Below, one piece after another: positions 14,398-32,734 of a stretch of DNA of 34,991 nucleotides. Location of the stretch: NCBI GenBank assembly GCA_030590945.1, contig JAUVBY010000012.1, positions 1 to 34,991 on the forward strand, read 5' to 3'. Position numbers and translations under genes: made by a program. Origin of the DNA: Gammaproteobacteria bacterium (GTDB taxonomy: Bacteria; Pseudomonadota; Gammaproteobacteria; Arenicellales; Poriferihabitantaceae). The number at the start of each line of letters is the position of its first letter. Positions within the stretch are counted from its first letter, which is position 1. The notes beneath the pieces were generated by a model, which was not told where the DNA came from, searched no databases, and saw nothing but the letters and a program-made list of their open reading frames with translations.

Positions 14398-16063
14398 TCA
14401 CCTCATGCGAAAAATATTTGACCACACAGCGCAGCGGATTCGGTGCTGCCTGGCCCAGACCGCAAATGGAGGCATCCTCCATCACGCAGCAAAGCGTTTC
14501 AAGTTCTTCCCCGGGCCACACTGCCTGCTGCATTATCTCAGACGCGCGTACGGTTCCAACCCGGCATGGCGTACACTGACCGCAAGATTCATGCGCAAAA
14601 AACTGCATTGCGTTGAGCGCTATATCGCGCGCCCGGTCATGACGGGAAAATACGATCACCGCTGCCGAGCCTATAAAGCAACCGTGTTTTTGCAGGGTAT
14701 CAAAATCCAGCGGCTCGTCGCCCAATGTTGCGGGCAAAATTCCACCTGAAGCGCCGCCCGGTAAATAGCCGTAAAACTCGTGGCCTTCAAGCATGCCACC
14801 TGCATAGTCTTCTATTAGCTCCCGCACGGTGGTGCCCGCGGGTGCCAGATAAACGCCCGGATTATTAACCCGCCCGCTCAGGGAATATCGACGTAAACCA
14901 CTGCGCCCGTGCGCGCCATAGCTCTGATACCAGTCAACGCCATTTCTCAGGATCTCCGGCACCCACATCAATGTTTCTGCATTGTGCTCCAGCGTGGGCA
15001 AACCATACAAACCCTGTTCCGCAATATATGGAGGGCGCTGGCGCGGCAAGCCACGCTTGCCTTCAATAGATTCGAGCATCGCCGATTCCTCGCCACAGAT
15101 ATACGCGCCCGCACCGCGGCGTATTTGCAGCTCTGGAAGGGGAAATTCGGCCCATTCACGCAAGGCTTCTATTTCCGTTTTCAATGAGGCCAGAATCGCT
15201 GGATATTCATCTCGCACATACAATACGCATTGCGTGCTTTCAATGGCCCAGGCAGCGATTAGTAAACCTTCGAGCAATGCGTGAGGCTGCTGCTCCAGCT
15301 CATGGCGATCTTTAAAAGTGCCGGGCTCCCCTTCATCAATATTCACCGCGATCCAACGGGGTTTGGATTGCTGACTAAGAATCTGCCATTTCCGCCCTAC
15401 CGGAAAGCCTGCACCCCCCAGGCCTCGCAAATTCGCGTCTGCAAGCGTCTGGATAATATCTTCTGTCGAATGTTCTCCCGCGAGGCAAGCCCGGTAAAAA
15501 TCATAACCGCCTTCCTTGATATAAGTCTCCAGTGCGGCAGGCAGGTCAGGACAGCTATGCTGTTTCTCTTCAATCACCTGTTCAATCCGCTGCGGACTGG
15601 CACAGCTCACCGGTTGTTGCCCCACCACCGCGACCGGGGCAGTATCACAGCGCCCCACGCAGGGCACACGCTGGATACGTACGCGATCAGGCAGGGAACT
15701 GTTTTCCAATTCTTCAATCAGTTTTTCGGCGCCCGCCAGCATACAGCTAATGGAATCGCATACGCGCACAGTGAGCGTAGCAGGATTTTGCTCATCATCT
15801 TCAAGCACATCAAAATGATGATAAAACGTGGCCACTTCGTAGACTTCAACTGGCGCGAGGTTCATCCATTCAGCCAGTGCAAGCAAATGCGCCTTGCGCA
15901 GGCAGCCATACTGATCCTGAATCAGGTGCAGAAACTCGATCAACAACTCGCGTTGTGGTGTTTCGTTTTTCAACAGAGACTCCATTTCAAGCCTGGCCTG
16001 CGGGCTAATTGGCCGGCCCTTGGGGCGCCAGAATTTGTTGCGTTTTGTCTTATTTCTACCCAT
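14387..16063 (-). CDS. fdsB: formate dehydrogenase fused gamma/beta subunit (NuoE-like + NuoF-like)
   Basis: N-terminal NuoE-like 2Fe-2S thioredoxin fold (VRVCDSISCMLAGAEKL..VPCVGRCDTAPV) followed by NuoF-like FMN/NADH domain (GRGLGGAGFPVGRKW-like LRGLGGAGFPVGRKW, INVDEGEPGTFKDR, ESCGQCTPCRVGT). Confidence 0.92.
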   Translation of the reverse strand: MGRNKTKRNKFWRPKGRPISPQARLEMESLLKNETPQRELLIEFLHLIQDQYGCLRKAHLLALAEWMNLAPVEVYEVATFYHHFDVLEDDEQNPATLTVRVCDSISCMLAGAEKLIEELENSSLPDRVRIQRVPCVGRCDTAPVAVVGQQPVSCASPQRIEQVIEEKQHSCPDLPAALETYIKEGGYDFYRACLAGEHSTEDIIQTLADANLRGLGGAGFPVGRKWQILSQQSKPRWIAVNIDEGEPGTFKDRHELEQQPHALLEGLLIAAWAIESTQCVLYVRDEYPAILASLKTEIEALREWAEFPLPELQIRRGAGAYICGEESAMLESIEGKRGLPRQRPPYIAEQGLYGLPTLEHNAETLMWVPEILRNGVDWYQSYGAHGRSGLRRYSLSGRVNNPGVYLAPAGTTVRELIEDYAGGMLEGHEFYGYLPGGASGGILPATLGDEPLDFDTLQKHGCFIGSAAVIVFSRHDRARDIALNAMQFFAHESCGQCTPCRVGTVRASEIMQQAVWPGEELETLCCVMEDASICGLGQAAPNPLRCVVKYFSHEVSDA

Positions 16064-16259
16064 GGCGCAATCGTACACGCCTGCCACAAATTGGAAACTG
16101 TGATGTCGCATTTATACAAGTGCGCGCCACCGGAGCTGCAAGTGAATAATACTACGGCGCGGGTAAGCATAAACTTGACGCATCTATTCCATTTTACCTG
16201 CTATAAAAGGGGTATTGTCAGCATCTAATTTAACCGCCATATCAATTGGAGTTTTCGTC

Positions 16260-17951
16260 ATGCCAACAGAACAGCATATTAATCCCCTGTCAGACATTGA
16301 AATCGCGCGGCAGGCAGACATGCAGCCCATTCAGGAGATTGCTGACAAGCTCGGTATCGATGAAGAGCACGTGTTTCCCTACGGCAAACATCGCGCCAAA
16401 ATTGAACGGGAATATCTCGAATCATTGGACGGCCGCCCCGACGGAAAACTCATTCTGGTTGCGGGGATCACCCCGACGGCAGCGGGCGAAGGCAAAACCA
16501 CCACGTCCGTCGGTCTGGGTGATGCGCTCACACGTATCGGGAAAAATGCCATGATCTGCCTGCGCGAACCTTCTCTTGGTCCCTGTTTTGGGATGAAAGG
16601 TGGCGCGGCGGGTGGCGGTTACGCCCAGGTGGTGCCCATGGAGCAAATCAATTTGCATTTTAACGGTGATTTTCACGCCATCAGCGCAGCGCACAACCTT
16701 CTATCCGCTATGGTCGACAACCATATTTACTGGGGCAACGAACTGGAAATAGATAGTCGCAAAGTAAGCTGGGGGCGCGTAGTGGACATGAATGATCGCG
16801 CGCTGCGCCAAATCACCAATGGCCTGGGTGGCACGGTCAATGGTTTCCCGCGCACCGACCATTACGACATTACTGTGGCCTCCGAGGTCATGGCTATTTT
16901 TTGCCTTGCCAACGATCTAAAAGATTTGCAACAGCGCCTGGGCGACATCATCGTGGCCTACACGCGAAAGGGCAAACCCGTATACGCGCGCGATTTGAAA
17001 GCAGATGGCGCGATGACTACGCTGCTTAAAGATGCGATTCAACCCAACCTGGTTCAGACCATGGAAGGCACACCGTGTTTTATCCATGGCGGCCCCTTCG
17101 CCAATATTGCACACGGCTGTAATACAGTAATCGCCACCAGATCCGCACTGAAACACGCCGACTACGTAATAACTGAAGCGGGGTTTGGCGCTGATCTCGG
17201 AGCCGAGAAATTTTTTGATATCAAAATGCGCAAATCCGGCTTAAGGCCCAATGCTGCGGTCATAGTCGCGACCATACGCGCCCTGAAAATGCACGGCGGT
17301 GTGGGCACGAAAGAACTGGGCGAGGAAAATCTTGAAGCGCTTGAAATCGGATTTTCCAACCTTAAACGCCATGTTACCAATACACGAAAATTCGGCGTGC
17401 CCGTGCTGGTCGCGCTGAACCGCTTCAACGCAGATACCGAAGCCGAACGCGAACTCCTGCTTACGCTATGCGAAAAAAGCGGTATCAACGCGGTTGAATC
17501 CGACCACTGGGCAATGGGCAGCGAAGGCAGCGAAGCGCTCGGGCGGGCGGTGATCAAAATGATCGATGAAGAACCCTGCGAGTTTGAATTTTTATACAAT
17601 ACGCAACTTAGCCTGTGGGGCAAAACCCGTACTATCGCTCAGGAACTATACGGCGCAGAAGACATTATCGCCGACAAAGCGGTACGTACGCAGTTCGAGA
17701 AACTACAGAAATCGCATGGGAATCTGCCCATTTGCATTGCCAAAACGCCGTTATCATTTAGTACCGACCCCTTGCTCAAGAATGCGCCGAGCGGCCACGT
17801 GGTACCAATACGGGAAATACGTCTTTCCGCCGGCGCTGGATTCGTGGTGGTGATATGCGGTGATATCATGACCATGCCGGGCCTGCCAAGGCATCCGGCG
17901 GCAGAGAATATCTTTGTCAACGAAGACGGGCTGGTAGAAGGGCTATTTTAG
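16260..17951 (+). CDS. fhs: formate-tetrahydrofolate ligase
   Basis: [71 protein letters not shown]-like TTGGAG upstream of the ATG at 16260. Confidence 0.95.
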
Positions 17952-18025
17952 GCAAAATTTACGAATCCTTTACCAATCGATTCTGGACATATAGTACCCA
18001 TTCCCCCTAAACTTACGTCCATAAT

Positions 18026-18096
18026 GTAGGGTGGATAAGCACGAGCGCATCCACCGATTAAAAAATGGTGGATGCGCTCGCGCTTATCCACCCTAC
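18026..18096. repeat. long palindromic intergenic repeat (30-bp arms, 11-nt loop)
   Basis: GTAGGGTGGATAAGCACGAGCGCATCCACC-gattaaaaaat-GGTGGATGCGCTCGCGCTTATCCACCCTAC; arms pair at 29 of 30 positions. Confidence 0.9.
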
Positions 18097-18119
18097 ACGT
18101 ACCTTCGAGTGATTCCAAT

Positions 18120-18869
18120 ATGAAAGTTCTGGTTGCAGTAAAACGCGTGGTTGATTTCAACGTGCGCGTTCGAGTCAAATCCGACGGCAGTGGTGTTGAT
18201 ATAGACAACGTCAAAATGTCGATGAACCCGTTTGATGAAAGCGCGATTGAAGAAGCCTTGCGTATGCGCGAAGCGGGCATTGCCTCTGAAGTTATCGCGG
18301 TATCGATCGGCGGCACAAAATCGCAGGAAACGCTGCGCACTGCGCTTGCCATGGGAGCGGACCGCGCCATCCACCTGGAATCTACCGACCCGGTTGAACC
18401 TCTGGGCGTCGCTAAACTACTGACCAAAATTGTAGAGCAGGAATCACCTGAAGTGGTGATTCTCGGCAAACAGGCCATCGATGACGACAGCAATCAGACC
18501 GGGCAAATGCTCGCTGCATTGCTCGATTGGCCCCAGGGCAGTTTTGCCTCAAAAGCGGTGTTTGATGGAAACAATCTGAGCCTGACCCGGGAAACCGACA
18601 GTGGTCTTGAGACACTGTCCATCACCCTGCCGGCGGTGATCACCACCGACTTGCGCTTGAATGAACCACGCTATCCTAAATTACCCGACATCATGAAGGC
18701 CAGAAAAAAACCCATCGATACCCACGATGCAGCCTCTATGGGAGTGGATATTGCGCCCCGCCTTACAGTATTAAACGTCACCGAGCCACCCGCGCGCGAA
18801 CCGGGCATCAAAGTGGCTAATGCAGCCGAACTCATCGATAAACTTAAAAACGAAACGGGGGTCATCTAA
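18120..18869 (+). CDS. etfB: electron transfer flavoprotein beta subunit
   Basis: [66 protein letters not shown]. Confidence 0.94.
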
Positions 18870-19798
18870 TGTCTATTTTAGTTGTTGCAGAACACGATAA
18901 TGCCTCGCTGAACCCGAGCACACTGAATACGATTAGCGCCGCAGCGCAAATCGGTGGCGAGATTGATCTACTGGTTGCCGGCCTGGACGCGAGTGCGGTG
19001 GTGGATGCTGCCAAAGCAGTAAACGGAATTAGTAAAGTAATCAGCGCCAACCATGAAGCACTGGGCGATGGCCTGGCTGAGAATATTGCCTGGCTGGTTA
19101 AAGGCCTTGCCAAAGACTACAGTCATATCCTCGTATCGGCATCAAATTTCGGAAAAAACTTTATGCCGCGTGTTGCCGCCATGCTGGACATGATGCAAAT
19201 ATCGGATATTACCGAAGTGGTGGCAGATGATACCTTCGTACGACCAATCTACGCGGGCAACGCCCTGCAAACCGTGCAAAGCAGTGATGCAATCAAGCTC
19301 ATCACGGTACGCACAACGGCCTTTGACCAGATCCCGGATAACGGAGGCTCTGCTGAAGTCATCGACACAGAGGTTGACGAAGCCTTTGGCCGCATTCAGT
19401 TTGTCAGCCGCGATGTAACCGAATCCGAACGTCCTGATTTGGCCTCAGCCAAAATCGTGATTTCAGGCGGGCGCGGCGTAGGCAGCAAGGAAGATTTCGC
19501 ACTCATTGAACAACTCGCTGAAAAACTCAACGCCGCTGTCGGCGCATCGCGCGCGGCGGTGGATGCCGGATATGCGCCCAACGACTACCAGGTCGGGCAA
19601 ACCGGAAAGGTCGTTGCCCCGGATTTATATATTGCAGTCGGAATATCCGGCGCCATTCAGCACCTGGCGGGCATGAAAGAAAGTAAGGTTATCGTGGCGA
19701 TTAACAAAGACGAAGACGCGCCGATATTTAATGTCGCTGATTACGGCATTGTGGCGGATTTGTTTGATGTAGTGCCCGAGCTGATTGAGGCATTGTAA
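18869..19798 (+). CDS. etfA: electron transfer flavoprotein alpha subunit
   Basis: C-terminal FAD-binding signature ISGGRGVGSKEDF..LAEKLNAAVGASRAAVDAGYAPNDYQVGQTGKVVAPDLYIAVGISGAIQHLAGM. Confidence 0.95.
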   Translation: MSILVVAEHDNASLNPSTLNTISAAAQIGGEIDLLVAGLDASAVVDAAKAVNGISKVISANHEALGDGLAENIAWLVKGLAKDYSHILVSASNFGKNFMPRVAAMLDMMQISDITEVVADDTFVRPIYAGNALQTVQSSDAIKLITVRTTAFDQIPDNGGSAEVIDTEVDEAFGRIQFVSRDVTESERPDLASAKIVISGGRGVGSKEDFALIEQLAEKLNAAVGASRAAVDAGYAPNDYQVGQTGKVVAPDLYIAVGISGAIQHLAGMKESKVIVAINKDEDAPIFNVADYGIVADLFDVVPELIEAL

Positions 19799-19811
19799 AA
19801 CTCAGAGTACA

Positions 19812-19939
19812 ATACCTCCCCCTTTGTCAAAGGGGGACTGCGGGGGATTTGATGTGCTTTACTTACTGAAAACGCTCTACTTTTGTCTCGCCTCGTTAAA
19901 TCTCCCCCAACCCCTCTTTGTTAAAGAGGGGGGTTATTG
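19812..19939. repeat. compound palindromic intergenic element with a hairpin in each arm (MITE/REP-like)
   Basis: Left arm AATACCTCCCCCTTTGTCAAAGGGGGACTGCGGGGGATTT; right arm AAATCTCCCCCAACCCCTCTTTGTTAAAGAGGGGGGTTATT; the arms are imperfect reverse complements and each folds on itself. Confidence 0.75.
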
Positions 19940-19942
19940 AGA

Positions 19943-21229
19943 ATGCCTCCCTCTACATCTCCTGATAAACAAAACACGGTAGCAGTCATCGGCGCAGGCG
20001 TTCTTGGCCTGTGCACTGCGCTGGAACTAATACGCGCCGGCTACCATGTCACGCTGTTCGACAAGGAACAGCCTGCGTTACAAGCCTCCTTTGGTAACGC
20101 AGCGTATCTGGCCGTCGAGTACCTGGAACCTCTGGCCAGCCCGGCACATATACTTTCTGCAATTAGGCTTAGTTTCAGCCGAAAATCAGCTTTTAAGGTT
20201 ACCCCCGATCACTTTCCGGCATTTCTACCCTGGGGCCTTCGTTTTATGCGGGAAGCTTTGCCTGCCAGGCTCGTGCATAACCAGCTCGCCATAAGCCGCC
20301 TCAACGCGCAGGCCATCGCTGCCTGGCAAGATATCTTGCGCTTTGCTAACGCACAGGATGATCTCCATCAGAGCGGCTTTTTGAGGCTTTGGGAAAAACC
20401 AGACGCCATTTCACAAGCCAGAATCTCACTGGAAAACGCCCGGCAATGGGGCTTTGATCCACAATTATTAAGTGGCGATGCGCTGCTCGAACGCGAGCCC
20501 GCGCTGGCTGACAGGGTTCGCCATGCCCTGTATTATCCCGGGGCCAGGCATCTTGGTAATACCTATCAAACCTGTCAACACCTGTTCGATCATTTTAAAC
20601 TTCAGGGCGGGTGCTTCAGGCAACAGGACGTCCAGGGCATTAGACCGCTCGGCTCCGGCGCCCGGCTCACACTGCAAGGCGGGCAACATGAGTTTGATAA
20701 AGTAATCATTACCGCTGGCGTCTGGAGCAAATCACTCCTGCACTCGATGGGCATTTCCGTTCCCCTGGCGGCTGAACGCGGCTACCATTTGACTCTCCCC
20801 GGGGCCAAAGGGACGCTTAGCCATATCCTGTCATCCACTGATCGCAACGTGGTACTCAGCCCACTGGATTGCGGCCTTAGAATAGTCGGATTTGGTGAAT
20901 ACTCCAATCTGACATCCAAACCCGTTAACAAACGTTATGCGCAACTGCGTTATCACCTGAGCAAACTCATCGCTGACGTAGATACCGAAGACCCGGATGT
21001 CGAGACCTGGATGGGGGTTCGCCCAACGTTTCCCGATTCACTACCGGTCATCGACTTACACCCCCAACACCCGCAAATAGGCATGGCCTTTGGCCACCAT
21101 CATCTGGGCGTCACCCATGCAGCTGTTTCAGCAAAAATGCTGGTGGCACTGATGACAGAGGGAAAGGGTTCTGAGGTATGGAAACCATTTGCAGATGCAC
21201 CGGATGCGTATTCGGTCGAGCGGTTTTAA
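19943..21229 (+). CDS. FAD-dependent oxidoreductase (D-amino acid dehydrogenase DadA-like)
   Basis: TVAVIGAGVLGLCTALELIRAGYHVTLFDKE dinucleotide-binding motif; C-terminal MGVRPTFPDSLPVID..GHHHLGVTHA typical of DadA-like proteins. Confidence 0.88.
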   Translation: MPPSTSPDKQNTVAVIGAGVLGLCTALELIRAGYHVTLFDKEQPALQASFGNAAYLAVEYLEPLASPAHILSAIRLSFSRKSAFKVTPDHFPAFLPWGLRFMREALPARLVHNQLAISRLNAQAIAAWQDILRFANAQDDLHQSGFLRLWEKPDAISQARISLENARQWGFDPQLLSGDALLEREPALADRVRHALYYPGARHLGNTYQTCQHLFDHFKLQGGCFRQQDVQGIRPLGSGARLTLQGGQHEFDKVIITAGVWSKSLLHSMGISVPLAAERGYHLTLPGAKGTLSHILSSTDRNVVLSPLDCGLRIVGFGEYSNLTSKPVNKRYAQLRYHLSKLIADVDTEDPDVETWMGVRPTFPDSLPVIDLHPQHPQIGMAFGHHHLGVTHAAVSAKMLVALMTEGKGSEVWKPFADAPDAYSVERF

Positions 21230-21241
21230 AGGTTGTTCCAG

Positions 21242-22120
21242 CTAATATCTCTCGACCTGATAACCCCGCGCTTCGAGCATGGCCAACAGACTTTCATCTC
21301 CGACTAAATGCAACACCCCTACCAATACATATTCAACCGTTTGATCACTCAATAAAGCCTCTATTTTTGGTAACCAGGCCCGGTTTCGTTCTACCAGTAG
21401 CGACTGGTACACGCGCGGAAATTCCCTGAATCCCTCCAGGCCAACTTCCTCCAGCTTCTGTGTATCACCTTGCCGCCAGGCCTTTTTTAATATTGAAAAC
21501 TCCTCACCGAAATCTTCCAGTTCATCCATCGTTTGTAATACCAGTTGATCTTCATCGCCTTCACCCATTGAGCTAAGAAACTCAATTTGTTGCTCGATTG
21601 TCTCTAGCGCCCCAATTGGCTTATTATCCTGTATGGCACGTGACGTGAAGTACTGATCAACACCTTCAGCCTGTATGCCATGGCGGTTCAATTCATTGAC
21701 GGTAAGAATAAGCACCAGCATCCCGACCTTAAACGACAGCAGGTTTTCCAGCGCAATCCCCCGTTTCTGCGTAAAGACCTTTAATTTCCTGAATGTAGAT
21801 GGTTTCAGGAGCGAGGTGAGAGTGCTGCCATCACGGTAAAGTACCGCTTGCATCAATTCCTGCTGAAACACCAGTGAGTTTGCCTGCGCAATATCGACTT
21901 CAAACACAAGCATTTCTGTTTCGGCATAGGCACGCTCAAATTCTAGCGGCAGGGGGTAGTCCTGCTCCTGTAGTACGTGAATCGTTCCACCAATTAACAA
22001 AGTATTATTCTCGTTACTGATTTTCCAGACAGGTGCGTCCGCCCGAGCCGGGTCGAGCACCAATAACAGCAACAAGGCAATTACTTTTCCGGAATATTTC
22101 ATAAAGAACGCAAACTGCAC
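21242..22120 (-). CDS. TraB/GumN family protein
   Basis: Signal peptide; PVWKISNENNTLLIGGTIHVL and C-terminal VLVGVLHLVGDESLLAMLEARGYQVE typical of the family. Confidence 0.85.
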   Translation of the reverse strand: MQFAFFMKYSGKVIALLLLLVLDPARADAPVWKISNENNTLLIGGTIHVLQEQDYPLPLEFERAYAETEMLVFEVDIAQANSLVFQQELMQAVLYRDGSTLTSLLKPSTFRKLKVFTQKRGIALENLLSFKVGMLVLILTVNELNRHGIQAEGVDQYFTSRAIQDNKPIGALETIEQQIEFLSSMGEGDEDQLVLQTMDELEDFGEEFSILKKAWRQGDTQKLEEVGLEGFREFPRVYQSLLVERNRAWLPKIEALLSDQTVEYVLVGVLHLVGDESLLAMLEARGYQVERY

Positions 22121-22190
22121 TGGGCGAACGAGTGTAACGCATCTACCCTATGTAAAGTCTTTTTCCGGGGCCAGGCTCAGTCCCAAAAAA

Positions 22191-22216
22191 AGGCCGCCTC
22201 TATACAGAGGCAGCCT
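22191..22216 (-). terminator. intrinsic terminator of the cytochrome P460-like gene
   Basis: Minus strand GGCTGCCTC-TGTATA-GAGGCGGCC followed by TTTTTTT. Confidence 0.8.
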
Positions 22217-22243
22217 GTTTCAGCTTAGCACCGGGAGTGGTAA

Positions 22244-22819
22244 CTAGTTGGTGTAAATATAGTCTCCGCCCGGCGCCGCCGTGTGGCATGCGATACAACC
22301 CTTGGGCTTGCCTTTTGCCACGCGCCCTGCAAGCTGCATGCCTTTATCGTTGGTATGCAATTCACCATTCGCTTTGTACTTAGCCCAGAACCAGTCCTGG
22401 TTTTCCGCATCATAGCCCGTTTCACGCTTGAACATCACGGTCACGGCTTTAAGATATTTTGCCGGGTCCGCGTTAACCGCATCCACCGATATGCCTTCAC
22501 CGCCGAAATTCTTTTTCACAATCGCTTTCCCGGAATGACCATCCACATTTACGATCGATGTTTTCGTTGTCAACACAGCGCCATGCGGATGAACACCTTT
22601 ATAGGCAGGAGGGTTTGACCCGGCATCGCCAACCAGTTTTGCTGCACCCAGTGAGGCCCACAACTGTTGTGAATAATTGACGCTATCGGGACCGCTAAAC
22701 GGCATCATCATCGGATCTGAGCCCATTGCATCTTTTTTATCCATTGAGCTTGAGCAGCCGGCCAGCGCAAGGAGCGCTACGGACGCAAGAGGTAGTAGTA
22801 TTTTCTTCATTTTTATCAT
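22244..22819 (-). CDS. cytochrome P460-like c-type heme lipoprotein
   Basis: Lipobox LLALAGC; VMFKRETGYDAENQDWFWAKYKANGE; single C-terminal heme motif CIACH (GCIACHTAAPGGDYIYTN). Confidence 0.82.
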   Translation of the reverse strand: MIKMKKILLPLASVALLALAGCSSSMDKKDAMGSDPMMMPFSGPDSVNYSQQLWASLGAAKLVGDAGSNPPAYKGVHPHGAVLTTKTSIVNVDGHSGKAIVKKNFGGEGISVDAVNADPAKYLKAVTVMFKRETGYDAENQDWFWAKYKANGELHTNDKGMQLAGRVAKGKPKGCIACHTAAPGGDYIYTN

Positions 22820-22967
22820 TATCCTGTTTTGTTTGTGACGCAGGCCACTCTGGCACTACGCTTAAGCAATAGGACAAGTATCAGGCTTTAAAGTTCATAG
22901 ACAGGCCGTGAAATAATATCCATACCAGAGGCCAAACATAAACGGCATCGACTCCATCGCGGAAAAC

Positions 22968-25379
22968 TTAAGCGCGCATTCTATGGCCTTTTGGATCATA
23001 TAGCGGTTGCGCCTGAACTTCAGCTTTGCACATTTCACCCAGAATTTCTACCTCCAGTTTCTGTCCCTCCTTCGCCAGAGCAAGCGGCACATACCCCAGT
23101 GCTACGGACTTTCCAACATAATGCGCATACCCGCCTGAAGAGACATATCCCACGGCTGCTCCTTCAAAAAGGATGGCTTCATCATTTGAAACATCGATAT
23201 CATCAGCTTCAATCACCAGCGTCACCAATTTGGTTTTTGCACCCTCAGCACGTTGTTGTAGCGTGGCTTCTTTTCCAATGAATTCTTTATTCCAGTTGAT
23301 AAACAAATCCATGCCACTTTCAACCGCGGTGAAATCGGGTCGAAAATCCAATGTCCACACCCCCCAGCTTTTTTCCAGGCGGAGACTCATCAAAGCACGC
23401 GCACCATACCAGCGCAGGCCAAGACCTTCACCGACCGCCTCAATGGCTTCGGCAAGTCGAATTTGATACTGCGGTGCGGTATAGATCTCATAACCCAGTT
23501 CGCCTGAAAAAGAGATTCGCGCCAGTATGACCGGCACCCCCGCTACAAAGGTCTTGCGAACGTCCAGAAATTTCAGCGCTTTGCCGGAAACGTCTTCACG
23601 GCAAATACCCTGCAATAACGCGCGCGAGTTTGGACCCGAAATTCCGATTCCGTGAAAAGCATCCGACTGGTTGACATAGCTAACTCCGCTTTCAGGCAAA
23701 TACTGCTCAAACCAGCGGCGATGTGCTTCCTGCATCGCACCGGAACCGAACAGCATAAAGTGGTCTTCGGCCAGGCATGCGACGGTTAGATCACCATACA
23801 GTTTGCCTTTTGGTGTCAACACCGGTGTCAACGCCATACGCCCGACTTTCGGCAGGCGCCCGGCCAGAACGTAGTCCAGAAATGCACGCGCGCCCGGGCC
23901 CCGGAATTCGTGTTTGGAGAAATTGGCAATCTCGATGCAACCCACCGCTTCACGCACCGCCTTTACCTCACACGCGACGTAATCGTGGGAGCGCGAACGA
24001 CGAAAGGTTGGTTCTTCGTGGGCATCATCGGGGCCGTCGGCGAACCATAGTGCGTGCTCGAGCCCAAACACCTGCCCCATCAGCGCGCCTTTCGCCATTA
24101 GCCGGTCATAAATTGCGGTGGTTTTTTGTCTGCGCCCCCGGGGCAGGGTTTCGTTTGGAAAAGTCATCACAAAGCGACGTTCATAATTTTCGGAAGACTT
24201 CACCGTTCCCCATTCCGGCGTAGCAAATTCCCCAAAACGCGCAATGTCCATCGCCCATACGTCAATCGATGGCTCGCCTTGTATCATCCACTCGGCCATG
24301 CACAAACCCACCCCACCCGCCTGGCAGAAACCCGCCATCACGCCAACTGCTACCCAGTAATTTTGTTTTCCCGGTACCGGGCCAATCATGGGATTGCCAT
24401 CCGGACCGAAGGTAAACGGGCCATTGATCATATCCTTTATACCCGCGCGGCCCAGCGCAGGAATCCGCTCAAACCCCACTTCCAGACGGTCCGCAATACG
24501 GTCAATATCGGGCGCTAACAGCTCATGCCCAAAATCCTGTGGCGTACCTTCGACTTTCCAGGGGGTCGACGTGGGCTCGTAAGTGCCCAGCAGCATGCCG
24601 TTGCGTTCCTGGCGAAAATACATATTACCTTCGTAATCGATTCCAGCCGGTAGGCGTTCATCAAGTTCCACGATTTCAGGAATTTCTTCGGTAATCAGAT
24701 AATGGTGCTCCATCGGTTGCACCGGCAGGTTTATCCCGGCCAGCTGCCCCACTTCACGCGCCCAGAGGCCACTGGCATTAACTACCATATCGGCATGAAT
24801 ATTGCCTTCGCCAGTTACCACATCCCAGGTACCGTCTGCGCGTTGGTTCATCTCCGTTACAGGGGTGTGCGTATAATAACTGGCGCCAAGCACCTTCGCG
24901 GCTTTGGCGTAGGCATACGTAGCACCCGAGGGATCCACATCACCATCCAGCGGATCCCACAAGGCGGCAATATACCGATCCGGATCAATCAAGGGGTGTC
25001 TGCGCGCGGCTTCCTCAACACTAATAAATTCCTGATCCAGCCCCATATAACGCGCCTTGGAACGCTCCCTTTTAAGATAATCATGCCAGGCTTCGTTCGA
25101 CGCGAGATAAAACCCGCCCGTGGAATGCAGGCCAACCGACTGCCCCGAGATTTCTTCAATCTCCTTGTAAAGATTGATGGTGTACCCTTGCATTCGCGAT
25201 ATATTCGGGTCGGATGAAAGTGTGTGAATCTGCCCGGCAGCATGCCAGGATGAGCCGGATGTCAGCTCATTGCGCTCCAGAAGAATCACATCCTTCCAGC
25301 CAAATTTTGCAAGGTGGTATAAAATTGAACACCCCACTACCCCCCCTCCAATAATGACTACTTTTGCTTCGGACTGCAT
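22968..25379 (-). CDS. dimethylglycine/sarcosine dehydrogenase-like protein (DAO-type FAD domain + GcvT-like domain)
   Basis: N-terminal KVVIIGGGVVGCSILYHLAKFGWKDVILLERNELTSGSSWHAAGQ; C-terminal GcvT domain with YGARALMSLRLEKSWGVWTLDF and FIGKEAT. Confidence 0.92.
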   Translation of the reverse strand: MQSEAKVVIIGGGVVGCSILYHLAKFGWKDVILLERNELTSGSSWHAAGQIHTLSSDPNISRMQGYTINLYKEIEEISGQSVGLHSTGGFYLASNEAWHDYLKRERSKARYMGLDQEFISVEEAARRHPLIDPDRYIAALWDPLDGDVDPSGATYAYAKAAKVLGASYYTHTPVTEMNQRADGTWDVVTGEGNIHADMVVNASGLWAREVGQLAGINLPVQPMEHHYLITEEIPEIVELDERLPAGIDYEGNMYFRQERNGMLLGTYEPTSTPWKVEGTPQDFGHELLAPDIDRIADRLEVGFERIPALGRAGIKDMINGPFTFGPDGNPMIGPVPGKQNYWVAVGVMAGFCQAGGVGLCMAEWMIQGEPSIDVWAMDIARFGEFATPEWGTVKSSENYERRFVMTFPNETLPRGRRQKTTAIYDRLMAKGALMGQVFGLEHALWFADGPDDAHEEPTFRRSRSHDYVACEVKAVREAVGCIEIANFSKHEFRGPGARAFLDYVLAGRLPKVGRMALTPVLTPKGKLYGDLTVACLAEDHFMLFGSGAMQEAHRRWFEQYLPESGVSYVNQSDAFHGIGISGPNSRALLQGICREDVSGKALKFLDVRKTFVAGVPVILARISFSGELGYEIYTAPQYQIRLAEAIEAVGEGLGLRWYGARALMSLRLEKSWGVWTLDFRPDFTAVESGMDLFINWNKEFIGKEATLQQRAEGAKTKLVTLVIEADDIDVSNDEAILFEGAAVGYVSSGGYAHYVGKSVALGYVPLALAKEGQKLEVEILGEMCKAEVQAQPLYDPKGHRMRA

Positions 25380-25438: not shown

Positions 25439-26041
25439 CTAATACCAGGCATCCGGGATTTCATCTTTTCGACGCCGCACATAATCCTGTAACGCTTCAT
25501 CCGTCGCGGCATCTATGGGGGGTGCCTCGTACTCCTCGAGCATGGTGTTCCAGCGTTCATACGCACGAGTTTGCGTGTCCTTGGCCCGGCTTTTCTCCGT
25601 AATAGCGCCCAGATGCGGCTTGTCGGAATATCGCATGTGGCAATAAAGCATATCCAGATGGCGTACAAATGGCGAGCCATAGACCGGGGCAAAAACCTGA
25701 TTGGCGCCACCGATGCGTACGGACCGATCCGGATTTCGGGCCAATTGTGTAAACTCAGTAGGCGCGGTTTTGCACAGGGCCCTAATCATCTCTCCCGACG
25801 CGCGAACGCGGGTCCCTTCAACATCCGCTCCCGCGTCCCGCCAGGTAGCCAGTGCAGACTCATCATCCTTAAACGCGATTCCCACATCCTGCATCAACCA
25901 GTCTGCCTGTTCCTCAATCTTGACCAGACCTTCTTCATCAAGAAATTCATAGAAGGGGATTTTTCTTTTGATGTAAGCAGGTACAGCGATGGATTCACTT
26001 GTATCACTGCGTGCTGCCCGTTTCCGTCGTCTTGGTGGCAT
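25439..26041 (-). pseudogene. trimethylamine methyltransferase (MttB)-like protein with large internal in-frame deletions
   Basis: N-terminal MttB-like segment to FAPVYGSPFVR, then HLDMLYCHMRYSDKPHLGAITEKSRAKDT, then an MttB-like C-terminus AYERWNTMLEEYEAPPIDAATDEALQDYVRRRKDEIPDAWY; total 200 aa against roughly 500 aa expected for the family. Reading frame intact, so it may still be expressed. Confidence 0.7.
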
Positions 26042-26140: not shown

Positions 26141-27055
26141 ATGAATATTATGCGAGAGCTGCGAGAAATCACTCATTCACCGCATCATCTCATGGTTTTT
26201 GAAGCCGCCGCCCGGCATCAGTCGTTCACCAATGCAGCAAACGAACTCAGCGTTTCCCAGCCAGCGGTCAGCTCCGCGATTCGCCAGCTTGAAAAAGCAC
26301 TGGGCGTCCGCCTGTTTACGCGCGGCCACCGCTCGGTTGTGCTCACCGAAGCGGGTGATACGCTGTATCAGGATGTATCGCAGGGCTTTAGTCGTATCCT
26401 TGAAACCGCGCGTCGTTTGCGCCACATGGAGAGAAACCGCCACGTCACGCTGTCAACTTCCACCGCATTTGCGAATTACTGGATGCTGCCGCGGCTTTCA
26501 AATCTCCACGCCCGTCACCCGGGCATTGATCTTCGCCTGCAGACCACGGACAAAGATCTTGATTTATCGGAAGAGGGTGTCAGCCTGGGCATTCGTCTTG
26601 GCAAGGGCGCCTGGCCGGGCTACGATTGTGAGTTGATCGCCCACGAAGTACTGTTTCCAGTAGCCAGCCCTCATCTCGTAGACCGACCTTCCGACATCCG
26701 GGATTTGAACACGCTGGCCACGGAAAATCTGATACACCTTGAGGAGCCCTACCGTCCAAGACCAACCTGGAAAGAATGGTTCTCAAGAATGGGAGCCAAC
26801 GTTAAGGACACGGGTAAAGGGCTGCGGCTCAACGACTACGCGCTGGTGATTCAGGCGGCGATGGCAGGTGAGGGCATTGCAATGGGATGGGAGCACGTCG
26901 TTGCACCTCTTCTGGAACAGGGCTTACTCACCCGGGTGGGCAGCTGGAAACTGGAAACCGGCAGCGGCATTTATCTTATCTGGTCAAACAAAGCACAATT
27001 GTCGGAACAGGCGATCGCGGTTCGAGACTGGATAATCGAAACGGCTACTGACTAG
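26141..27055 (+). CDS. LysR-family transcriptional regulator (GcvA-like)
   Basis: HTH: LMVFEAAARHQSFTNAANELSVSQPAVSSAIRQLEKALGVRLFTRGHRSVVLTEAG; C-terminal substrate-binding domain; divergent from the MttB-like/DMGDH genes. Confidence 0.92.
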   Translation: MNIMRELREITHSPHHLMVFEAAARHQSFTNAANELSVSQPAVSSAIRQLEKALGVRLFTRGHRSVVLTEAGDTLYQDVSQGFSRILETARRLRHMERNRHVTLSTSTAFANYWMLPRLSNLHARHPGIDLRLQTTDKDLDLSEEGVSLGIRLGKGAWPGYDCELIAHEVLFPVASPHLVDRPSDIRDLNTLATENLIHLEEPYRPRPTWKEWFSRMGANVKDTGKGLRLNDYALVIQAAMAGEGIAMGWEHVVAPLLEQGLLTRVGSWKLETGSGIYLIWSNKAQLSEQAIAVRDWIIETATD

Positions 27056-27223: not shown

Positions 27224-30022
27224 ATGAAAGGAATATCCTTGGCCACGCACAGAACCGACGCGAAAAAAAGAAATCGACCCAACATAGATCATTATCACAG
27301 CCCAACTCAGGTCCGATTTGATAGTTGGCATAAATTAGTCGAATATTCCCAACGAATAAATTCGAAAAAGCCCGGTGCAAAAAAGACTGACAAATCGAGC
27401 AGCCAGCCCAGCTTGCGCAGCAAGGTAAAAGACTTATTGCTCACCCTGGAAACCATCGAGGAATACACTGCATTTCCGTCTATATCTGACATGGAGACGC
27501 TTTGGCGGTATTTTGATGATAAAAATTATTCCAGCTTTACCCGCAGCGTAGAACAAATCGTTCGTGCCCTGTGCAATGACAGTTACCGGCGACGCAATAT
27601 CAACCTTGACAAAGTTGACAAGACGCATTCTGATGATCAGAGTATTCAACGCAGTGATCAATCCTCATCCGACTCGAACTATGAAAAGCCATATTTCGAG
27701 GTTTTATTCGTCGATAAGAATGCCCGCGCAGAAACTCCGGTCATCAAAAAAGGTCTGGCTAAACTAAGCCGGGATGAAGATGAATTCGTTTACGATATTC
27801 TCGCCGTACCGAGCTTCGAAGACGCACTGATTGCGGTACTGCTCAACTACAACATTCAGGCTGTTGTGATACGTTACGATTTTCCGTTGCGTTCGAAAAA
27901 CCATCTAAAAATAATCCAGCGCTATTTGCACGCCATTACCGATATCGATTACGATGATTTACCTGTGTCCGGTCACGGCCCACTACTCGGTGCATTTATC
28001 GCCAGCTTACGCCCTGAGCTGGATATATATATGGTCACTGATTCTTCCGTGCAATCGATAGATGCGGGGTCTGGCGGGATATTTAACCGGGTATTTTACC
28101 GGCAGGAAGACTACCTTGAGCTGCACCTGAATATTTTGCGTGGCGTAGGCGAGCGTTACGAAACTCCTTTTTTCAATGCACTGAAAAAATACAGCCGCAA
28201 ACCTACGGGCGTGTTCCACGCCATGCCTGTCTCACGTGGAAAATCCGTCACCCAGTCGCACTGGATTCGGGATATGGTCAAGTTTTACGGAATAAATATA
28301 TTCCTCGCGGAAACATCAGCTACCTCAGGCGGGCTCGATTCGCTGTTGCAACCTCACGGGCCGATAAAAAAGGCCCAGCAGCTCGCAGCTCGCGCGTTTG
28401 GCGCCCGACGCACTTTTTTTGTCACGAATGGCACATCAACCGCAAACAAAATTGTCGTCCAGGCGCTGGTTAAACCCCGGGACATCGTCCTGATTGACCG
28501 GGATTGCCATAAATCTCACCACTATGGAATGATGCTTGGCGGCGCACTGCCTTCTTATCTTGACTCATATCCTTTACACGAATACTCAATGTACGGTGCC
28601 GTACCGCTCGGAGAGATAAAGCAGCGCCTTCTCGCTTACCGTGATGCAGGCAAACTAGACCAGGTAAAAATGTTGCTGCTGACCAACTGCACCTTCGACG
28701 GCATCGTGTATAACGTTGAAAAAGTCATGGAAGAATGCCTGGCCATCAAACCTGATCTGGTATTTTTATGGGACGAAGCATGGTTTGCGTTTGCCGCGTT
28801 CACGCCGACCTTCCGGCAACGAACCGCCATGGCGACCGCCAAGAAACTGGTTAAAAAATATCGTAGCGCCGCGTATCGCGAACAGTATGAACAGCGACAA
28901 CAGGCTAAGCCGGGCGAACCCGATGTGCTACCCGACCCGGATAAAGTCCGTGTCAGGGTTTACGCTACCCAATCTACGCATAAATCGCTGACCTCGCTTC
29001 GCCAGGGTTCCATGATTCATATTTATGATCAGGATTTTAATCAGAAGGTTGCTGAACCATTTAATGAAGCCTTTATGACTCATACATCAACATCGCCCAA
29101 TTACCAGATTCTGGCCTCACTTGATCTTGGTCGTCGCCAGGCTGAGCTCGAAGGGTATGAGATGGTACAAAAACAGATTGAACTTGCCATGTCCATACGC
29201 GAGCAGGTTTCAGGCAATCCGAGGCTGACTCGCTACTTTAAGTTTCTTGTCGCACGTGAACTGGTTCCAGAGACGTATAGACCGTCTAAAATCGAGGCAT
29301 ACATTGACGCAGAAACCGGATGGGCAAACGACAATATGGAGGAGGCCTGGGCGCAGGATGATTTCGTCGTAGATCCGACCCGTCTGACCCTATATATTGG
29401 CGCGACCGGTATCGACGGAGATACCTTTAAAAACGAATACCTGATGGATAAATACGGCATACAGGTAAACAAAACGTCGCGCAATACCGTGTTATTTATG
29501 ACCAACATTGGCACGACACGCAGCTCGGTTTCGTTCCTGATGGACGTATTAACAAAAATAGCGGACAACCTCGAATTGGAACAGGCAGAATTTGGCCGTT
29601 ACGAACGCAAGCTGTTTGAAAAGAAAGTTCATTCCTTGACCATGGATCTTCCTCCTCTGCCTGATTTTTCACGATTTCACGATTCATTTCGATCGCGTAA
29701 AGCAAGCGACACCCCGGAAGGCGATATACGCAAAGCTTTTTTCCTGGCGTACGATGAAGCCAACTGTGAGTACGTGGACATCGAGACACCCGGACTTGAA
29801 AAAGACATCGAAAATGGCCACGAACTGGTCGCCGCCAGCTTCCTGATTCCTTACCCGCCGGGGTTTCCAATTCTGGTGCCAGGCCAGGTCATCAGCACCG
29901 CCATCATTTCATTTATGAAAAAGCTGGATGTAAAAGAAATCCATGGTTACCAGCCGGAGCTGGGGATTCATGTGTTTACCGAAGAGGCCCTGCAACAGGT
30001 CGCTGCTGGCATACCGGCATAG
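27224..30022 (+). CDS. PLP-dependent Orn/Lys/Arg decarboxylase-like protein with long N-terminal extension
   Basis: RTFFVTNGTSTANKIVVQAL, DCHKSHHYGMML, FLWDEAWFAF, PLP-lysine motif ATQSTHKSLTSLRQGSMIH. TTG at 27239, preceded by AAAGGA, is an alternative start. Confidence 0.88.
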   Translation: MKGISLATHRTDAKKRNRPNIDHYHSPTQVRFDSWHKLVEYSQRINSKKPGAKKTDKSSSQPSLRSKVKDLLLTLETIEEYTAFPSISDMETLWRYFDDKNYSSFTRSVEQIVRALCNDSYRRRNINLDKVDKTHSDDQSIQRSDQSSSDSNYEKPYFEVLFVDKNARAETPVIKKGLAKLSRDEDEFVYDILAVPSFEDALIAVLLNYNIQAVVIRYDFPLRSKNHLKIIQRYLHAITDIDYDDLPVSGHGPLLGAFIASLRPELDIYMVTDSSVQSIDAGSGGIFNRVFYRQEDYLELHLNILRGVGERYETPFFNALKKYSRKPTGVFHAMPVSRGKSVTQSHWIRDMVKFYGINIFLAETSATSGGLDSLLQPHGPIKKAQQLAARAFGARRTFFVTNGTSTANKIVVQALVKPRDIVLIDRDCHKSHHYGMMLGGALPSYLDSYPLHEYSMYGAVPLGEIKQRLLAYRDAGKLDQVKMLLLTNCTFDGIVYNVEKVMEECLAIKPDLVFLWDEAWFAFAAFTPTFRQRTAMATAKKLVKKYRSAAYREQYEQRQQAKPGEPDVLPDPDKVRVRVYATQSTHKSLTSLRQGSMIHIYDQDFNQKVAEPFNEAFMTHTSTSPNYQILASLDLGRRQAELEGYEMVQKQIELAMSIREQVSGNPRLTRYFKFLVARELVPETYRPSKIEAYIDAETGWANDNMEEAWAQDDFVVDPTRLTLYIGATGIDGDTFKNEYLMDKYGIQVNKTSRNTVLFMTNIGTTRSSVSFLMDVLTKIADNLELEQAEFGRYERKLFEKKVHSLTMDLPPLPDFSRFHDSFRSRKASDTPEGDIRKAFFLAYDEANCEYVDIETPGLEKDIENGHELVAASFLIPYPPGFPILVPGQVISTAIISFMKKLDVKEIHGYQPELGIHVFTEEALQQVAAGIPA

Positions 30023-31692
30023 TGAACCATGACTTGGGGCCGTCGCCCGACGAATTAAGAAACCAGCTAAACCGTGTTTCCCGGATCACGCGTTCAGCTA
30101 TGCTGGACATCTATGCAAATATAAAACGCGCGGTATTGCGCAGCATCAATAGCCTAAAACTTGAAGGTGGCACAGCCAATGCTGATAAACAACATGAAAA
30201 TAACTACCCCACAGATACGAGGAGCCCAAGCATGAAAAAACTGAACAATATTTCTGATGTAAGGCGATATTTTCACCGCAATGAAACCCCGATTTATTTT
30301 ATCAGCGCGACCAATTTTAATTTACTCGGCATCTCTGAATGGGTGAAGGATTTTCGATATATAAACTATATCGATTGCTTTGATGGTCGACACCCAAGTG
30401 TACGAATCCCGGCTGAACAGCCCCATCGTGAGTTTGAAGGTATTGAAGACATTAATAATTACCTGCTGCAACACAAAGAGGTAGTCGATTACATCGAATA
30501 TCGTGGAACGAAAGGCAAAGCGGTTTTTTTGATGTTTGACGAGAAAACCGAACAACTGTGCGCCGATTTGGGGCTGGATGTCTGGTTTCCTTCGGCTGAG
30601 CTACGCCAAAAACTGGATAACAAAATTGAGACTGTTCGCATCGGTGATCGGGCCGGTGTACCCAGTGTTCCTAATATACTCGCCCGGGTTCAAAGCTATG
30701 AAGAACTTTGTGAGGTTTCCAGGGCACTGGGCAATGATCTCGTCCTTCAATCGGCATTTGGTGATTCGGGCAAAACAACTTACTTCATTTCGAATGAAGA
30801 AGAATGGGATGAGCATAGCGCAGAAATTATTGACGAACCTGAAATGAAGATAATGAAGCGGGTTAACTGTCGTGGATCTGCCATCGAGGCTTGCACTACC
30901 AAATGCGGCACAATTGTCGGGCCGCTGATGACCGAGCTAGTCGGGTTTAAAGAGCTTACGCCCTATAAAGGCGGGTGGTGTGGTAACGAGATTTTCGCTG
31001 ATGCATTTAGCCCTGAAATTCGCGAGAAGGCCCGCCGCTATACCCGGGATTTTGGCGAGGCCTTGCGGGAAGAAGGGTATCGCGGCTACTTTGAACTTGA
31101 TTTTTTAATCGATCTTGATAACGGTGAACTTTACCTGGGCGAGCTTAATCCCAGAGTAACCGGTGCGAGCTCCATGACGAACCATGCAGCCTTCGCGCAC
31201 GCTGATGCACCATTGTTTTTGTTCCATCTGCTTGAATTCTCGGATGTTGAGTTTGATATCGACATCGCCGCACTCAATAAACGCTGGGCAGACCCCGACA
31301 ATGTAGACGACTGGAGCCAACTGGTTATCAAACATGTGGACGACAGCGTGGACTACATCACCGATGCACCCGAATCAGGCATCTGGCGATTACAGGATGA
31401 TAATTCGGTTACCTTTACCCGGTTCGATTATCACCGCCGCGCTGTCGAAGACGATAACCATGCGTTTTATATGCGCATTAGCGGGTCCGGCGACTACCGC
31501 TACAAAGGCGCGGATTTAGGTATACTCATCACTCGCGGCCGCTTAATGACCGAAAATTTTGAACTCACTGAGCGCGCTAAAGCATGGACTGCGGGAATTA
31601 TCGGGCACTACAAAGCCATATCACTTGACGAAGCGGAAAATGCCACCCCACCCCCCGTTTCGTTGACCGACGGCGCGTTTAAAATATTGTAG
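30022..31692 (+). CDS. ATP-grasp domain ligase (carboxylase/peptide-ligase-like)
   Basis: ATP-grasp-like elements VPSVPNILARVQSYEELCEVSRALGNDLVLQSAFGDSGKTTYFI, GYFELDFLIDLDNGELYLGELNPRVTGAS. GTG start overlaps the upstream stop (TAGTG); ATG at 30232 with AGGAG upstream is a credible alternative. Confidence 0.82.
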   Translation: MNHDLGPSPDELRNQLNRVSRITRSAMLDIYANIKRAVLRSINSLKLEGGTANADKQHENNYPTDTRSPSMKKLNNISDVRRYFHRNETPIYFISATNFNLLGISEWVKDFRYINYIDCFDGRHPSVRIPAEQPHREFEGIEDINNYLLQHKEVVDYIEYRGTKGKAVFLMFDEKTEQLCADLGLDVWFPSAELRQKLDNKIETVRIGDRAGVPSVPNILARVQSYEELCEVSRALGNDLVLQSAFGDSGKTTYFISNEEEWDEHSAEIIDEPEMKIMKRVNCRGSAIEACTTKCGTIVGPLMTELVGFKELTPYKGGWCGNEIFADAFSPEIREKARRYTRDFGEALREEGYRGYFELDFLIDLDNGELYLGELNPRVTGASSMTNHAAFAHADAPLFLFHLLEFSDVEFDIDIAALNKRWADPDNVDDWSQLVIKHVDDSVDYITDAPESGIWRLQDDNSVTFTRFDYHRRAVEDDNHAFYMRISGSGDYRYKGADLGILITRGRLMTENFELTERAKAWTAGIIGHYKAISLDEAENATPPPVSLTDGAFKIL

Positions 31693-31696
31693 AATC

Positions 31697-32734
31697 TTGA
31701 ACACAAAAACACACCGGCGCATCACCAGCAAGCTGTTTGAATCGATCGAAGAGCATAACCCCGGTCCAAAATGGGCAGCGATGTTCGAACATTTCTGGCC
31801 GGAATATCATAAATGGTTTTTGAGCGAAGGCGATGCTGCCCGACCATCGTATGGTGAATGCCTTAAGCAGTTCCGTCGGCACATGCCTGAACTGGAGCCG
31901 ACTTACCGAAAATTGTGTGAATTAGCCGGTGGTGGAGATGCGGCCGCCCGGTTTTTGTCGATGTATTCTCCGCCGGCCTATTTGTCTGGCTGTACCCAGG
32001 CTGTGTGGACGGGCAGCGAGCCGGTCTTAATCCGTAATTACGACTACAACCTGAGCAGCTTTGAAGGCGTGGTATTAAATTCAAGCTGGCACGGGCAACG
32101 TGTTATAGCGATGAGCGATGGCTTGTGGGGCGTCCTGGACGGCATGAATGAATCGGGCCTGGCGATATCCCTGGCTTTTGGTGGGCGGGTTAATGTAGGT
32201 AAGGGATTTGGTATACCTATCATATTGCGTTACATACTGGAATTTTGCCGGGACACCCCGGCCGCGATTGCGGTATTAAAACGCATTCCAACCCACATGT
32301 CTTATAACATTACCGTTGTCGATGCCAAACAGCGCTTCGCCACGGTATACGTTACGCCAGACAAATCACCTGTGGTCAGGCAAATACCCGTCGCCACAAA
32401 TCATCAGGGGAAAATAGAATGGGCGCGCCATGCCTGGGCAACCGCTACCCTGGAACGCGAAAATGCGGTGCAGGCGATCATGAGCAACGCCGACGAAACC
32501 GCTGATGGCCTACTGGCCGGGTTTCTTCGCCCGCCCGTTTATAACACCGCTTATCAGCGGGGCTTTGGCACCCTGTACACCGCCGTGTACAAGCCCCGGC
32601 AGGCGACCATTGACTATATATGGCCGAATCAAAACTGGCATTTCAGCATGACGCATTTCGAAGAGCAGCGCCGTGAAATCGCGTTCGTCAATCTGAGCAA
32701 CGATGTTTTCCAGCCTGTTTTGCCCTTGAACTAA
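31697..32734 (+). CDS. C45-family autoproteolytic acyltransferase/hydrolase (Ntn fold, penicillin acyltransferase-like)
   Basis: SGCTQAVW with candidate nucleophile Cys99 after Gly98; LIRNYDYNLSSFEGVVLNSSWHGQRVIAMSDGLWGVLDGMNESGLAISLAFGG; MSYNITVVDAKQR. TTG start, 5 nt after the upstream stop. Confidence 0.82.
   Translation: MNTKTHRRITSKLFESIEEHNPGPKWAAMFEHFWPEYHKWFLSEGDAARPSYGECLKQFRRHMPELEPTYRKLCELAGGGDAAARFLSMYSPPAYLSGCTQAVWTGSEPVLIRNYDYNLSSFEGVVLNSSWHGQRVIAMSDGLWGVLDGMNESGLAISLAFGGRVNVGKGFGIPIILRYILEFCRDTPAAIAVLKRIPTHMSYNITVVDAKQRFATVYVTPDKSPVVRQIPVATNHQGKIEWARHAWATATLERENAVQAIMSNADETADGLLAGFLRPPVYNTAYQRGFGTLYTAVYKPRQATIDYIWPNQNWHFSMTHFEEQRREIAFVNLSNDVFQPVLPLN

Follow-up and report, generated by a model that had tools for sequence, protein, structure and literature searches.

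Three neighbouring genes, coding for a PLP-dependent decarboxylase (DEC), an ATP-grasp ligase-like protein (GRASP) and an Ntn-type acyltransferase/hydrolase (C45), almost certainly form a conserved functional unit. This unit is quite probably linked to GABA metabolism, and we propose that the trio would be the local three-gene form of a GABA-metabolism module composed of CN, DEC, GRASP and C45. The genes are located in the window, the whole stretch of 34,991 nucleotides that was analysed (Table 1). A search of the literature found no paper on the trio and no characterised pathway that matches it, in agreement with the initial annotation.

Table 1. Features of the window and residues discussed in the text.
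Feature	Positions	Strand	Description	Basis
C1/methylated-amine cluster	11665-25379		dimethylglycine-dehydrogenase-like fusion, DAO, ETF subunits, formate-THF ligase, formate-dehydrogenase-like proteins	
MTTB remnant	25439-26041	-	200 aa, trimethylamine methyltransferase remnant	
LysR-family regulator	26141..27055	+	upstream of the trio	profile matches
DEC	27224..30022	+	PLP-dependent decarboxylase, 932 aa, Orn/Lys/Arg-decarboxylase fold	profile and structure-relative searches
DEC K587	28982..28984	+	PLP lysine in STHK	alignment A4
DEC N749	29468..29470	+	Asn in GIQ[IV]NKTSRN	alignment A4
Shine-Dalgarno-like site	30217..30224	+	ACGAGGAG, ahead of the likely GRASP start	
GRASP	30232..31692	+	ATP-grasp ligase-like protein, 486 aa from ATG 30232 (longest ORF from GTG 30022)	
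GRASP ELNPR motif	31141..31155	+	followed by V-TGAS	alignment and motif counts
C45	31697..32734	+	Ntn-type acyltransferase/hydrolase, 345 aa (TTG start), isopenicillin N acyltransferase-like fold	
C45 Cys99	31991..31993	+	Cys in SGC[ST]Q	alignment A3
Genes behind C45	32832-33901		160-aa protein without known family; VOC protein	

Conservation of the gene set

A scan of genome contigs listed at least 571 loci with relatives of GRASP, the best 80 of which were kept; 103 loci were read in all, a few of them being one place fetched twice. More than 80 loci, from Alpha-, Beta- and Gammaproteobacteria and one member of the Bacteroidota, carry the gene set. The order CN-DEC-GRASP-C45 is found in 42 of the 103 loci and CN-GRASP-C45-DEC in 15, from Halomonas and Marinobacter kin, while 32 have DEC-GRASP-C45, many of them ended by a contig edge, and a few are without DEC. 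Hence, the order varies and the set persists. CN, a nitrilase-fold carbon-nitrogen hydrolase (amidase), is the fourth gene in most lineages; it had been missed in the initial annotation, and a search of the window's genome found no close copy of it. Co-occurrence was counted across a single collection of 399 Pseudomonadota genomes, with GRASP counted over 500 bits. GRASP is present in 12 of these genomes, and module-type DEC and C45 are found in exactly those 12. The chance of such an overlap for two of the three genes would be about 10^-22 if genomes were independent, which, owing to kinship, they are not. The pairwise distances of DEC, GRASP and C45 correlate (r 0.90-0.93). A gene-neighbourhood survey had been suggested for the trio, and with these counts the genes are seen to be kept together outside close relatives.

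Among marine Alpha- and Gammaproteobacteria the module is common; it is also found in some soil bacteria and on rhizobial plasmids. DEC and GRASP lie together on plasmids of Rhizobium and Sinorhizobium (L141, L142 and L148), with C45 too in L142 and L148; the L141 module is near nifA, and DEC is shortened in L141 and L142. A Planctomycetota MAG (L061) has a lone GRASP beside S49 peptidase and gcpE genes, with DEC elsewhere in the genome. The two genes behind C45 in the window are found there in close relatives as well, often with an amidase. Upstream, the LysR-family gene is a possible regulator of the trio, judged by its neighbourhood. The MTTB remnant has kept its N-terminal and apparently its C-terminal part and has lost the middle.

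Gene boundaries

The trio lies on the forward strand where it had been reported (27224-32734), and its families are as assigned in the initial annotation. DEC matches OKR_DC_1 (E 2e-75) and scores 254 bits in the major domain of PF01276 (gathering score 27), GRASP reaches 776 bits against a cut-off of 684 for NF005096, and C45 is above the cut-offs of C45_proenzyme (E 1.6e-51) and NF040521 (175.5 against 85). What did not hold is the junction of DEC and GRASP, which had been described as a 1-nt overlap (TAGTG) and taken as a sign of translational coupling. This overlap is an artefact of longest-ORF calling. In relatives, GRASP homology starts at MKKL, the start codon (ATG or GTG) stands about 10 codons ahead of an RR[YF]FHR motif, and a purine-rich site mostly precedes this conserved start (GAGGAG in the window; GAGGA and GGAGGAG also among the sequences compared). 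No purine-rich ribosome site lies ahead of GTG 30022, and the likely start of GRASP is ATG 30232. The gap between DEC and GRASP is then 209 nt in the window, compared with roughly 0-60 nt in most other lineages. With this start and gap the coupling argument falls, and the case for an operon rests on conservation. The reported 4-nt gap between GRASP and C45 holds if C45 starts at TTG 31697, upstream of which no strong ribosome site was found.

The decarboxylase and its substrate

DEC shares with LdcI, AdiA and SpeF the fold, the PLP lysine of the STHK motif, K587, which is invariant in the alignment, and the PLP-nitrogen aspartate, here in a WDEAW motif. It differs from them by about 200 extra residues, by PGQ where Lys/Arg/Orn decarboxylases have PGE, and by an Asn instead of their substrate-binding Glu. 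This Asn, N749, is likewise invariant and aligns, in an HMM alignment, to the VEKTG Glu of a lysine decarboxylase and of AdiA. Counted along the alignment, that residue corresponds to E526 of E. coli LdcI, for which substrate binding has been proposed from docking in a relative (PMC5607190). Thus, DEC does not have the substrate-binding Glu that is suited to a basic side chain. Of 94 DEC sequences, 89 show the exchange; the remaining five are truncated, partial or missed by the regular expression. The closest solved relative, matched over its full length, is Rv2531c of M. tuberculosis (PDB 9n0n/9n0o; E 3e-247). It shares the active-site-loop Asn and the PGQ motif with DEC, has an Ile where the module DECs have the conserved Arg of NKTSRN, and has no known activity (PMC12910592).

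Eight further genomes (L184-L191) carry DEC without GRASP. These sister DECs are about 45% identical to that of the window (two compared), and six of them, taken into a tree, group together with 100/100 support. In all eight genomes the gene adjoins an AspT-family antiporter, a homologue of the Asp:Ala antiporter, one of which is over the TIGR03802 cut-off; a second AspT-family gene is located further away in most of them. Decarboxylase and antiporter could possibly work as a pair in the manner of GadBC. The change from Glu to Asn together with the AspT neighbour makes an acidic substrate the simplest reading, and it is moderately likely that DEC acts on an acidic amino acid. Members of the AspT family transport several acids, which counts against the proposed explanation.

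Genomic context and alternative explanations

In L021, L023, L027 and L036 the surroundings of the module include a gabT gene that exceeds a curated cut-off, and L027 has gabD-gabT-CN-DEC-GRASP-C45 in one run. The locus of Chondrinema (Bacteroidota) combines SSADH, gabT, CN, DEC, a permease, GRASP and C45, and in R. ponti gabT stands beside the module. In the 12 genomes with the module, to which this count is confined, no classical glutamate decarboxylase exceeds its cut-off. Four loci (L038, L140, L145 and L146) have GRASP and C45 without DEC, and in its place an arginine-catabolism set of KauB (PRK07524 over cut-off in L038 and L140), KauC-like and SpeB/GbuA-like proteins, D-amino-acid dehydrogenase, racemase and RidA. 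By known biochemistry, arginine racemase/dehydrogenase, KauB, KauC and GbuA-like enzymes lead from arginine to GABA. In the genome of Thiofilum (L038) no DEC was found. A general exclusion of DEC and the arginine route at genome level was rejected, as G007 and the XES5 plasmid each have a DEC away from the locus. The two exclude each other at the locus but not always genome-wide, and this weighs against the proposed explanation. The window's own genome has gabT and gabD above cut-off, which speaks for GABA, but both are unlinked to the trio, which speaks against it. Because of the Asn of DEC, the AspT neighbour, gabT and gabD, and the replacement of DEC by a route from arginine to GABA, the amine of the module is probably GABA or beta-alanine rather than a polyamine.

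The initial annotation had instead expected an amine or polyamine derived from lysine, ornithine or arginine. A route in which DEC forms a diamine or agmatine, GRASP conjugates it and C45 trims the conjugate would suit the Orn/Lys/Arg decarboxylase fold, and arginine could be a start shared with the DEC-less loci and their arginine-catabolism genes. It is nevertheless unlikely, given the clade-wide Asn, the AspT-type antiporter beside the sister clade and the adjoining gabT and gabD; moreover, no agmatinase, deiminase or polyamine gene is regularly near DEC loci. Less probable is a bacterial parallel to the black, ebony and tan system of insects, with DEC turning aspartate into beta-alanine, GRASP coupling it to amines and C45 releasing it. 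The aspartate:alanine antiporter homologue of the sister clade is in line with this reading, as is the fold of C45, since insect Tan is classed in the isopenicillin N acyltransferase family. Against it, the arginine route that replaces DEC gives GABA and not beta-alanine, and the usual neighbours are gabT and gabD.

In many Halomonas (L050 and others) the module is inserted between doeX and doeC, inside the ectoine-catabolism cluster doeA-doeB-doeX...doeC-doeD-eutB-eutC, and this setting indicates diaminobutyrate as much as GABA. A role in ectoine or diaminobutyrate turnover, with DEC decarboxylating 2,4-diaminobutyrate or a derivative, is improbable all the same: the setting is limited to the Halomonas lineage, the loci of Marinobacter, Roseobacter, Thiofilum and the window are without ectoine context, and in H. 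elongata the cluster is complete and works without the module (PMC3187862). More improbable still is an oxidative arginine route, in which DEC would convert arginine and O2 to 4-guanidinobutyramide, the CN amidase would yield 4-guanidinobutyrate, and GRASP and C45 would act on the latter. The amidase is a regular partner of the module and 4-guanidinobutyrate is the intermediate of the arginine route that replaces DEC at some loci, but the amidase occurs also where DEC is absent, nearly all DEC loci are without ureohydrolase, and the active site of DEC is changed away from basic substrates.

GRASP and C45

NF005096 carries the name biotin carboxylase. In GRASP, ELNPR[VI]TGAS stands where biotin carboxylase has EVNPRIQVEH, and the bicarbonate/biotin motif NxRxQVEH is thus missing; through this replacement the database name misleads. 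The nearest folds to the GRASP model (pLDDT 87) are biotin carboxylase and PurK, and the fold search gave generic ATP-grasp matches only, with no substrate hint. GRASP shares the overall ATP-grasp fold with these two and with GAR synthetase (TM about 0.6) and differs from all three by the absent IQVEH motif, an identity of about 13-14% and another gene context. Biotin carboxylase was rejected on motif and context, and a ligase is the likelier function, as judged from the family. A carboxylating operon with GRASP as a genuine biotin carboxylase, as name and nearest folds would have it, is very improbable in view of the replaced motif, a TM-score of only about 0.6 and recurring neighbours among which no biotin carrier or carboxyltransferase gene was noted.

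The model of C45 (pLDDT 92) is closest to isopenicillin N acyltransferase (2x1c), followed by N-acylethanolamine acid amidase (NAAA) and acid ceramidase; all three share the Ntn fold with it (TM 0.5-0.67). A profile search against solved structures returned nothing significant by sequence, and C45 differs from the three enzymes by an identity of about 14% and a context without CoA, penicillin or lipid. Its invariant Cys99 sits at the place of self-cleavage expected from these enzymes and is predicted to be self-cleavage site and nucleophile.

Proposed pathway and comparison with known systems

In the proposed pathway DEC would most likely convert glutamate to GABA, the conversion of aspartate to beta-alanine being a close alternative. 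GRASP would use ATP to form an amide bond onto this omega-amino acid, and C45, once self-cleaved at Cys99, would hydrolyse or transfer the amide; the CN amidase, where present, might act on a further small amide. The substrates, the direction in which the pathway runs and the making and breaking roles of GRASP and C45 are all inferred, and the explanation as a whole is tentative, falling a little short of probable. A cycle in which a GABA conjugate is made and broken is possible but doubtful. Of the initial interpretation, the conserved unit and the general scheme stand, and making an amine, coupling it with ATP and cleaving or transferring the amide remains the best working model; translational coupling and the source in lysine, ornithine or arginine are not supported.

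Should DEC indeed decarboxylate acidic amino acids, the presumed substrate would be wrong for an entire branch of the textbook polyamine-enzyme family, perhaps including the structure-solved Rv2531c, and there would be a second type of GABA-forming enzyme. The pair of GRASP and C45 would then indicate a so far undescribed GABA conjugate, and the database names 'biotin carboxylase' and 'ornithine decarboxylase' would need correction.

The Puu pathway, with gamma-glutamyl-putrescine, and insect black, ebony and tan are likened to the module in the way they work only, and the module differs from this comparison in having no oxidase step. In these systems an amide is formed with ATP and cut later. 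It is somewhat unlikely, but conceivable, that the module is a new conjugation route for GABA (or beta-alanine) in marine and symbiotic bacteria, leading from an acid-switched decarboxylase of the Orn/Lys/Arg fold via an ATP-grasp ligase to a penicillin-acyltransferase-like release or exchange, and thereby convergent with black, ebony and tan of insects.
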